From assembly GCA_030426085.1 (NCBI GenBank), contig JAUHYW010000005.1, positions 62,001-126,000 of the forward strand: a stretch of DNA of 64,000 bases. The letters run 5' to 3'. The notes under the pieces are model-generated. The model was not told where the DNA came from and searched no databases. It saw only the letters and a program-made list of their open reading frames with translations. Shown piece by piece: positions 46,985 through 60,334 of the stretch (position 1 is the stretch's first letter; each line of letters begins with the position of its first letter). This DNA comes from a bacterium. GTDB taxonomy: Bacteria > Myxococcota_A > Bradymonadia > UBA7976 > UBA1532. A program made the position numbers and the translations under genes.

Positions 46985-47566
46985 ATGTCCGACGCCCGCC
47001 TCGTCGCCGCGGCCCTGCTCACCGCCACGGTCCTGCTCGCGCTCCGGGCGACCGCCGAGCCGGCCGCGTCACCCTCGGCGCCGCTGCCGGTCGAAGCCGA
47101 CTGGAGGGCCCGGTCGGAGGCGTGGTTCACCGCGAAGGACGAACCCGCGCGCCGGCAGGAGATGCGCGCCGTCACCCGGGCGCTTCGCCAGCCGTGCAGA
47201 TACTGCCACACCCCGGACTTCACCGGGTATACCGACAAGCGTCTGATCAGCCAGCAGATGATGGCGCTGTCGGCCGAGCACGGGGTGACGTGCGCCGAGT
47301 GCCACGCCGGGCGAGACGGGCTGACGCCTCTGGGGCAGCGCGCGGCGCCGATGTGGGCTCTCGCCCGGGAGAAGGAGACCTTCTGCGGGACGTGTCACGT
47401 GAAACATCGCCGATTCGAGGCCCTGACCCCCGCAGGCGAGCGCTTCGCGAAGGCCGAGTGGCCCGCGTGGCGCGAGGCCCACGGGGTGAAGCCCCCGCCG
47501 AAGCCCGGAACCCCCGCTCCGGGCGCGCCGCCCTCGAAGACCGCCCCGCCGAAGCCCGCGCCATGA
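46985..47566 (+). CDS. Exported triheme c-type cytochrome
   Basis: This 193-residue protein has an N-terminal signal or anchor (LVAAALLTATVLLALRATA) and three CxxCH heme-binding motifs: CRYCH near residue 79, CAECH near 105 and CGTCH near 137. Further His residues (HTPDF, HAGRD and VKHRRF) could serve as axial ligands. The Pro-Lys tail (KPPPKPGTPAPGAPP) is unstructured. It is a periplasmic electron carrier of unknown partners; no dehydrogenase or reductase lies next to it. ATG 46985 follows GAGGAG. A parS-like sequence (47391-47406) lies within the third heme region. Confidence 0.85.
   Translation: MSDARLVAAALLTATVLLALRATAEPAASPSAPLPVEADWRARSEAWFTAKDEPARRQEMRAVTRALRQPCRYCHTPDFTGYTDKRLISQQMMALSAEHGVTCAECHAGRDGLTPLGQRAAPMWALAREKETFCGTCHVKHRRFEALTPAGERFAKAEWPAWREAHGVKPPPKPGTPAPGAPPSKTAPPKPAP
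47391..47406 (+). promoter_or_regulatory. parS: parS-like ParB-binding site (14 of 16)
   Basis: CGTGTCACGTGAAACA matches the consensus TGTTTCACGTGAAACA at 14 of 16 positions, differing at positions 1 and 4. It lies inside the cytochrome gene, where it encodes Cys-His-Val-Lys-His right at the third heme motif. It is one of four such sites on the way to parAB. Confidence 0.6.
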
Positions 47567-47736
47567 GCCCGCCGCTCCACCGCCTGCGGCAGCGCCTCTG
47601 GCACCTGCTCCTCGATCTGGCCGAGGCCCCACGGACCCGCCGCTGGGTCCGGCGGGCGGGGGCCCGGATCGCCCGTCGGCGACGGGCGCGGGCGATCCGA
47701 CGCGGCGCGAGGGGGCGCCCCGCTCAATCACCCTGA
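47563..47736 (+). CDS. Possible small Arg-rich protein
   Basis: A 57-residue reading frame starts at ATG 47563, overlapping the cytochrome stop by 4 bp (ATGA). It is very basic, with a run of Arg-Ala repeats (RRAGARIARRRRARAIRRG). No family is recognised. The only support is the coupled start and its place after the cytochrome; it also overlaps the convergent membrane gene by 13 bp, so it may be spurious. Confidence 0.35.
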   Translation: MSPPLHRLRQRLWHLLLDLAEAPRTRRWVRRAGARIARRRRARAIRRGARGRPAQSP

Positions 47737-48848
47737 CGCCGCCGGGCGACGGCGGGCACCACCCACAACGCAGCGCAACCGAGCCCGGCGCCGGCGAGCA
47801 ACAGGCCGAGCGTGCCGCCCTGCTCGGCGAAGGCCGGGGCCAGCCCGGCGGGCGGCGGCGCCCGGCCCACCAGCTCGCCGTTGAGATCGGCGGCGGCCAT
47901 CAAGCTGCCGTCGACCCCCCGGTCGAGCTGCACCCCGATGATCAGCGTGGCGTCTTCGTAGTCGACCCGGATGGTGACGTTGCCCGAGCCGACCTCCTCG
48001 AATCCGGCCCCGTGCAGCGCCTCGATGATGCGCGGGCGCTGGGCTGAGTAGAACGCCTTGAGCGCCGGCAGGTCACGCTCCCGGATCCAGCCGGCGACTT
48101 CCCCGGGCGCCGCGCCCGCGCCCGCCACCTGCGCCGCTTGCTGCACCGCCGCCGCGAGGCGGGCGTGGTCGTCGCGGTCTCCGCTGAGCGACAGCACCGG
48201 CAGGCCGCCCACGATCAAGGCCCCGAGGAGGAGCGCAGCGGCGAGGTACGGGCGCCACTTGCGCAGCGCCTGCATGCCGTCGGCCCCGCTCCGCGCCAGC
48301 GACGGGGCCGACCGGGGCTCGGCCGGCGCGCTCGCGATCTGGCGCGCCATGAGGCGGATGTCGTCCCGGGCCATCTCGGCTTGCAGCTCGTCGATCCCAC
48401 GCGGCTCGGCGCGGGCGGGCTCGTCGGGGGGGTCGGAGGGCGGCGGCTTCGCGGCTGCTCGCGCCGCGCCGGGCGGCGCCGTCCTCGGCCGGTCGGGCTC
48501 GGGGGGCGATGATGCGCGCGATCGATCGCCCGCGGCGGGGGGAGCGGTCGAGCGGCCCGGGCGACGGCTCGCGCCGGATCGGTCGCCCACCGGAGGCCGC
48601 GCGGAGGCGCCGGCGCCCGAGACCCGGGCCCGCACGGCGCTGTGCCGCCCCGACTGCCGGGCGCCGGGGCGCACGGCGCGATGGGGTCCGGTCGTGCGCA
48701 CCCGCCCCGCCGCCTCGCTGCGCTGGACCGACGGCGGGCGATGCCGCGGGCCGTCGGAGGCGGCCGGTCGATAGCCGGGGATCGCGATCGACCGGCCGTC
48801 ACCGGGCGTCGACCGCTGCTCGCGCTGGTCGTCGTCGGACGTGCTCAT
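47724..48848 (-). CDS. Two-helix membrane protein with long disordered N-terminus
   Basis: This 374-residue protein has a 195-residue N-terminal cytoplasmic part rich in Arg, Pro and Ser, predicted disordered. A membrane helix follows near 200-222 (YLAAALLLGALIVGGLPVLSL). A folded extracytoplasmic domain of about 120 residues comes next (LPALKAFYSAQRPRIIEALHGAGFEEVG, then a beta strand VTIRVDYEDATLIIGVQLDRG). A second helix (LGLLLAGAGLGCAALWVVPAVA) sits near the C-terminus. The family is not recognised. The start is ATG 48846-48848. Confidence 0.75.
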   Translation of the reverse strand: MSTSDDDQREQRSTPGDGRSIAIPGYRPAASDGPRHRPPSVQRSEAAGRVRTTGPHRAVRPGARQSGRHSAVRARVSGAGASARPPVGDRSGASRRPGRSTAPPAAGDRSRASSPPEPDRPRTAPPGAARAAAKPPPSDPPDEPARAEPRGIDELQAEMARDDIRLMARQIASAPAEPRSAPSLARSGADGMQALRKWRPYLAAALLLGALIVGGLPVLSLSGDRDDHARLAAAVQQAAQVAGAGAAPGEVAGWIRERDLPALKAFYSAQRPRIIEALHGAGFEEVGSGNVTIRVDYEDATLIIGVQLDRGVDGSLMAAADLNGELVGRAPPPAGLAPAFAEQGGTLGLLLAGAGLGCAALWVVPAVARRRQGD

Positions 48849-48944
48849 GCCCCCCCGCTCGCTGGCTCACCGAGCATCTTACAGCAGGCGACGTTCGATT
48901 CCGACCGGCCTCGCCGACGATTCTGCGCGCGCCGGGCTCGGGGG

Positions 48945-59673: not shown

Positions 59674-59689
59674 CCGCCGGGCAGACGGC

Positions 59690-60292
59690 TCAGCTCTTGG
59701 GCGGCGCCACGATCGGCGGCGCCTCGCCAGGGGAGGCCATCTGCGACCGCCCCGGCGCCCGGGCCGCCGCCCCCGTGCCCCGCATCTTCACCGTGCCGTC
59801 GAAGGTGGCCCCTCGCTCGACCACGAGGGACTTCACGTCCAGGTCTCCGGTGACCCGGGCGCTGGCCTTCAACTCCAGCTCGCCCGAGGTCGTGATCGTG
59901 CCGCCGACCTCGCCGCTGACCACCGCCGACTTGACCTGGATGGTGCCGTCGACCTTGGCGTCCTTGCCCACCTCGAGGTGGCCTTCGGACTCGATGTCGC
60001 CGATGAACTCACCCTCGATGACGACGGTGCCTTCGAACGTCAGCTTGCCCTTGAACCGGCTGCCCCGGCCGAGCAACGCACCGTGGTTGCCGCCGCGTCC
60101 GGGGGCATTCTGCAAGTCTTCCCTCTTCACTGGCGCCTCTTTGGTAGCAGTGGTCTCGAATACCGCGCGCTGCGCGGGCTCGTCCGCCGGCTCGGCGGGG
60201 GGCAGCGCCCGGGGTCGATCGGGTCCGTCGCGGACCGCCGACCTGGGCGCGGATTTCGGCTCGTCGGCGCGTCGCTTGCGTCTTCCGAACAC
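59690..60292 (-). CDS. Bactofilin
   Basis: This 200-residue protein has the bactofilin (DUF583) core of beta-helix repeats from about residue 75 to 170: GSRFKGKLTFEGTVVIEGEF in pieces, GDIESEGHLEVGKDAKVDG and GGTITTSGELELKASARVTGDL in pieces. Bactofilins polymerise into filaments that act as scaffolds for cell shape and, in Myxococcus, for ParABS placement. Flanking N-terminal (basic, Pro-Ala) and C-terminal tails are disordered. The start is GTG 60290-60292, with GAGGGG about nine bases upstream. It is divergent from parA, with a perfect parS site between. Confidence 0.93.
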   Translation of the reverse strand: MFGRRKRRADEPKSAPRSAVRDGPDRPRALPPAEPADEPAQRAVFETTATKEAPVKREDLQNAPGRGGNHGALLGRGSRFKGKLTFEGTVVIEGEFIGDIESEGHLEVGKDAKVDGTIQVKSAVVSGEVGGTITTSGELELKASARVTGDLDVKSLVVERGATFDGTVKMRGTGAAARAPGRSQMASPGEAPPIVAPPKS

Positions 60293-60318
60293 GTTGTGTT
60301 TCCCCTCGATCGGGGCGA

Positions 60319-60334
60319 TGTTTCACGTGAAACA
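60319..60334 (+). promoter_or_regulatory. parS: Perfect parS site upstream of parA
   Basis: TGTTTCACGTGAAACA is an exact 16-of-16 match to the classical ParB-binding palindrome. It lies 27 bp beyond the bactofilin start and 48 bp before the parA ATG, in the shared divergent promoter region, so ParB binding could also repress one or both genes. Confidence 0.95.

Follow-up and report, generated by a model that had tools for sequence, protein, structure and literature searches.

The analysed window (the whole 64,000-nucleotide stretch of DNA) contains four putative parS palindromes leading up to a parAB gene pair, and we consider this locus to be the chromosome's own canonical ParABS segregation locus, with a probability of about 0.95. 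The sites, genes and motifs, as well as their uniqueness and conservation, were computed; the predicted binding, spreading and segregation are taken from what is known of the protein family. By analogy with that family, ParB would load on the four sites, close as a CTP clamp and slide outward, turning the surroundings of the sites into one ParB-DNA complex, and nucleoid-bound ParA would move such complexes apart after replication.

The first-pass annotation had listed seven CACGTG hexamers in the window, and seven were indeed found (29538, 45641, 47396, 52781, 52790, 57954 and 60324). Four of them are the cores of 16-bp sequences at 47391, 52785, 57949 and 60319 that differ from TGTTTCACGTGAAACA by 2, 2, 1 and 0 bases, exactly the 14, 14, 15 and 16 matches out of 16 that had been claimed, and their spacing (5.4, 5.2 and 2.4 kb) likewise agrees. 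Site 1 (47391-47406) falls within a c-type cytochrome gene, in the third of its CxxCH motifs, site 2 (52785-52800) at the junction of the cysS stop and the uvrB GTG start on the minus strand, site 3 (57949-57964) at the junction of a beta-lactamase-fold gene and an inositol-monophosphatase-like gene, and the exact site 4 (60319-60334) in the gap between a bactofilin gene (minus strand) and parA (plus strand). The next best 16-mer in the 64-kb window has 5 mismatches. A second CACGTG, at 52781, was considered as an overlapping parS; it also has 5 mismatches, the same-genus genome G006 reads GACGTG there, and it is probably not a site.

Chance matches in GC-rich DNA were considered as an explanation of the four sequences. 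The whole-genome scan, which the first-pass annotation had named as a refuting test, spoke for the sites. In the draft genome (10,146,291 bases in 178 contigs, 95.24% complete) only these four places, all within 13 kb, match with three or fewer mismatches, and their positions recur in relatives. The reversed pattern, used as a control, matches at 6 places in the same genome at up to three mismatches and at 0 places at up to two; the bare count at three mismatches is therefore not above chance, and it is the closeness of the matches and their clustering that are. With the base composition of contig C5, 0.0006 sites with two or fewer mismatches are expected per 64 kb and 0.10 per genome. Across 1.36 Mb of DNA from this genome and the same genus, 7 such sites were found, as compared to a mean of 0.02 and a maximum of 1 for 200 permuted palindromes. 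The six control matches at three mismatches are what speaks for chance; the genome scan, the reversed control at two mismatches, the permuted palindromes, the clustering and the conservation in relatives refute it and leave it a probability close to nil. As is characteristic of chromosomal ParABS loci, the palindromes lie near parAB and are rarer elsewhere, so that their earlier description as parS sites clustered by parAB is well supported as a prediction.

The gene pair itself was found where it had been placed, next to the sites. parA (60383-61186, plus strand) encodes a 267-aa Walker-type ATPase (AAA_31, E 5.7e-59) with a KGGVGKT motif and without an N-terminal DNA-binding extension; it lies directly 5' of parB (61183-62058, plus strand), and the two genes overlap by 4 bases. 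The 291-aa ParB has ParB_N, HTH_ParB and ParB_C regions, with PF02195, PF17762 and PF23552 all over the cut-off, and carries GERRYRA and ENVQRE motifs, in keeping with a CTP-binding domain, a helix-turn-helix and a C-terminal dimer domain; solved ParB, Spo0J and Noc proteins are among its relatives. No other protein of the draft genome passes the ParB_N cut-off. According to the available parts of PMC7383237, residues Q162, G170, R173, N178, G201 and R204 contact parS, and positions 173 and 201 separate parS from NBS recognition. As judged by motif spacing, all six contact residues are present in this ParB, including the pair R173 and G201, which is of the parS rather than the NBS type; K171 is replaced by R and S172 by D. 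These data also bear on the alternative that the sites serve a Noc-like protein or another CACGTG-binding factor rather than ParB. Noc is related to ParB and is one of the solved matches, and the position equivalent to 184 is a lysine, as in Noc; however, the genome holds no second ParB_N protein over the cut-off, Noc has Q/R where this protein has the R/G of ParB, and the sites carry parS arms, all of which makes this alternative very improbable. A ParB tree was built from 78 rows, 65 of them from the 80 named loci and 13 from the order; in it the rows of the order are grouped on one side of a branch and inside no named phylum, and hence no phylum is named for the lineage.

The order of genes in the region is YceG-like (mltG), DUF1841, gshB, the c-type cytochrome gene, an ORF, uvrC, uvrB and cysS, followed by a zinc-ribbon-like ORF (weak match), a 4HBT thioesterase, an S66 peptidase, the beta-lactamase-fold gene, the inositol-monophosphatase-like gene and rsmG, and then by bactofilin (minus strand), parA, parB and, on the minus strand, atpC and atpD. 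Within sites 2 and 3 the TGA stop of one gene overlaps the GTG start of the next: the proposed start of uvrB (50786-52792, minus strand) is the GTG inside site 2, where cysS (52789-54306, minus strand) ends, and that of the inositol-monophosphatase-like gene (57957-58823, plus strand) is the GTG inside site 3. Site 2 is conserved in G006. G008 has the same site-3 junction, and in G005 a site occupies the short gap at this place; site 3 is absent from the same-genus G006, where only residues 1-70 of the beta-lactamase-fold gene were matched. A search by title found no report of parS sites that form stop/start junctions or fall within coding DNA, from which we do not claim that none is in print.

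Site 1 is part of a cytochrome gene with three CxxCH motifs (46985-47566, plus strand; Cytochrome_C7, E 8.3e-07), where it reads TGT CAC GTG AAA CA(T) within the motif CGTCHVKH, and it is identical in G006. The homologous motifs of three relatives are CDNCHVPK (G011), CEHCHTPG (G004) and CDDCHQPQ (G003), with 9, 11 and 9 mismatches to parS. Two of the codons in site 1 are rare in the 32 ORFs of the window, in which 10 of 289 lysine codons are AAA and 4 of 72 cysteine codons are TGT; given the residues C-H-V-K-H and this codon usage, the probability that the codons spell TGTCACGTGAAACA is about 9e-4. Since rare codons of a CxxCH motif spell parS here and three relatives differ from it at 9-11 positions, site 1 looks like a gain within this genus, paid for with altered codons and residues, which is the simplest reading of the sequences; with five genomes compared, the resemblance may instead be drift plus chance.

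That sites 1 and 2 have two mismatches each and lie in coding DNA, and that site 3 is missing in G006, we count against the ParABS reading. An alternative is that real parS are limited to sites 3 and 4, sites 1 and 2 being coding coincidences of the CxxCH motif and the cysS/uvrB junction: each of the two has two mismatches, the heme-motif codons fix much of the sequence of site 1, and the counterparts in G004, G011 and G003 show neither site. Both are kept in G006, however, the codon choice in site 1 is improbable given its residues, and the 10.1 Mb hold no further match at up to three mismatches. We therefore regard it as unlikely, although less so than the other alternatives, and retain all four as predicted parS of a ParABS locus.

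The exact site 4 lies 48 bases from the parA ATG, and a parS core is found 21-60 bp 5' of parA in 9 of the 11 family genomes in which parA and parB were located (48 bp in this genome, G000, and in G006, which has one mismatch at the same place; 45 in G008, 43 in G004, 42 in both G011 and G012, 56 in G002, 60 in G005 and 21 in G003). The exceptions are G001, with parS approximately 0.26 kb upstream of parA, and G010, with parS before its bactofilin gene. Among named loci from many phyla, 45 of 80 have parS with two or fewer mismatches, and 17 of the 79 with a parA match have it within 300 bp upstream of parA; the position of site 4 is thus not unusual. On the other side of the gap, the bactofilin gene (59690-60292, minus strand; PF04519, E 4.5e-27) is divergent from parA, an arrangement between rsmG and parA that is shared by 8 of the 11 family genomes (G000, G006, G004, G011, G012, G008, G003 and G001). 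In G010 bactofilin is upstream in the same direction, and none was found at parAB in G005 or in G002, whose contig starts about 0.9 kb before parA.

An extended -10-like element, TGTGCTAT (60365-60372, plus strand), is located 18 bases before the parA ATG. It is conserved: T[AG]TG[AGC]TA, a motif picked after the sequences had been seen, occurs at -17/-18 of parA in all 10 upstream regions examined (G010 was left out). Its closeness to the ATG suggests a leaderless parA mRNA. In Pseudomonas aeruginosa, ParB bound at parS near promoters represses adjacent genes, as described in the part of PMC5521831 available to us; judging by its position, ParB at site 4 probably also tunes transcription of parAB and bactofilin.

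At 59482-59644, between the end of rsmG (gidB; 58820-59482, plus strand) and the bactofilin gene, lies a MITE-like element of 163 bp whose ends are inverted (GGAGGGTGTAG...), the left one overlapping the rsmG stop. The genome contains at least 4 copies at 99-100% identity (this one included, one incomplete), at least 1 at 79% and at least 10 at 75-77%, which are lower bounds, as 40 of 144 candidates were scored. Of 3 full copies, 2 have TA on either side. As G006 has only about 0.1 kb at this position, the insertion looks recent.

Within the order, 14 of 16 genomes have parS with two or fewer mismatches, with 66 sites in all as compared to 3 for the reversed control, and the number per genome ranges from 0 to 23. 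The genome scans found no such site in G004 and G009; in the latter the parB match is at a contig end. G010 has 23 sites on six contigs, as opposed to 0-4 in other family members. In G013 and G014, members of the sister family, six sites each flank a gene of the glutamyl/glutaminyl-tRNA synthetase type (class I E/Q). These clusters (L156:5922-7968 and L158:8710-11344) lie on a different contig from parAB, and the sites thus seem to be separated from the gene pair in these two genomes.

In G004, G011 and G012 the centre of the parA-proximal site is CATGTG or CACATG, the central CpG having been lost. The sequence TTTCATGTGAAA occurs once in each of the three (6 of the 16 genomes were searched), and its reversed control gave one match, in G011. 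G004 stands apart from G011 and G012 in two trees, and in G011 and G012 the core change has the opposite orientation relative to parA; both observations indicate that the central CpG was lost more than once. Changes in ParB were considered as the cause of the CATGTG cores and rejected: there are none at the equivalents of 173 and 201, and the replacement of Q162 by H, present in G011 and G012, is also found in G013 and G014, which keep CACGTG.

A broader interpretation, which we put forward tentatively and hold to be rather doubtful, is that the parS in the bactofilin-parA gap would be the family's ancestral and indispensable centromere and at the same time a ParB switch that doses the par operon and the polar scaffold. 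The other sites would be gained and lost fast, even in genes, ParB-site selection having in this genus rewritten a heme motif C..CHxP.T to CGTCHVKH; and the strict CACGTG core would not be needed in the three relatives whose single remaining parA-proximal site is CATGTG or CACATG. The locus as such is ordinary, and its value is comparative: the number of sites with two or fewer mismatches varies from 0 or 1 to 23 in one family, a site in coding sequence is apparently recent, and the parA-proximal site of three genomes apparently tolerates loss of the CpG. Why parS sites cluster and differ in number is among the open questions named in the accessible text of PMC7333895, and the family offers a dated series for testing them.

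The first-pass annotation had further taken the arm from gyrB to the atp operon for the partition zone, and this holds in part. gyrB (C5:59566-62106) ends at about position 106, at the left edge of the window, dnaA (C5:54380-55807) is just left of the window, and atpC and atpD follow parB; yet the four sites are confined to the final 13 kb, at least 47 kb from the end of gyrB. On the same contig they are about 54-67 kb from dnaA and about 47-60 kb from gyrB. A GC-skew minimum at parS was not borne out: in the 1.13-Mb contig C77 of the same-genus G006, where the skew is shallow, parS occupies 657-670 kb and dnaA 723-724 kb, but the cumulative low is at 375 kb. Nor was a DnaA-box cluster found, as exact TTATCCACA occurs 0 times in the 230-kb contig and with one mismatch 3 times, none of them near dnaA. 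gyrB is on the gshB side of parB in G000 and G006, at a distance of approximately 60 kb, and on the atp side in G001, G002, G004, G011 and G012, at about 7-15 kb; such differences in side and distance indicate that the region was rearranged. That neither a skew minimum nor a cluster of DnaA boxes links the locus to oriC, and that G004 and G009 have no site at up to two mismatches, we also count against the ParABS reading; in addition, with a draft of 178 contigs, further sites may lie in the missing DNA.

Bactofilins invite comparison with Myxococcus xanthus, in which bacM is immediately downstream of parAB and the bactofilins BacNOP position ParABS, as reported in the portions of PMC5703909 at hand. 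Here, too, a bactofilin gene adjoins parAB; unlike in M. xanthus, it lies upstream of the pair and points away from it, and parS is in the gap between them. A bactofilin downstream of parB was seen in 9 of the 80 named loci with a bactofilin detected near parAB. In a bactofilin-organised system of the M. xanthus type, a PadC-like adaptor would connect bactofilin with ParA/ParB. The draft genome has no candidate for a PadC-like protein over the ParB_N cut-off, and the one other ParB_N match, a weak one on C58 below it, was discarded, the two ORFs tested there being without a Pfam match. For regulation by ParB, P. aeruginosa parS3 and parS4 are the precedent, while in the present locus it is suggested by position only. 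The locus also closely resembles the ParABS systems of Bacillus subtilis and Caulobacter crescentus, with which it shares a parAB operon, a canonical 16-bp parS and a few sites by parAB within about 70 kb of dnaA; chromosomal loci of such form, in which one parS site is often enough, have been described (PMC7333895, PMC7022226, in the parts available). In contrast to these two systems, three of the four predicted sites here are in coding DNA or at gene junctions, and the exact one is in the bactofilin-parA gap.
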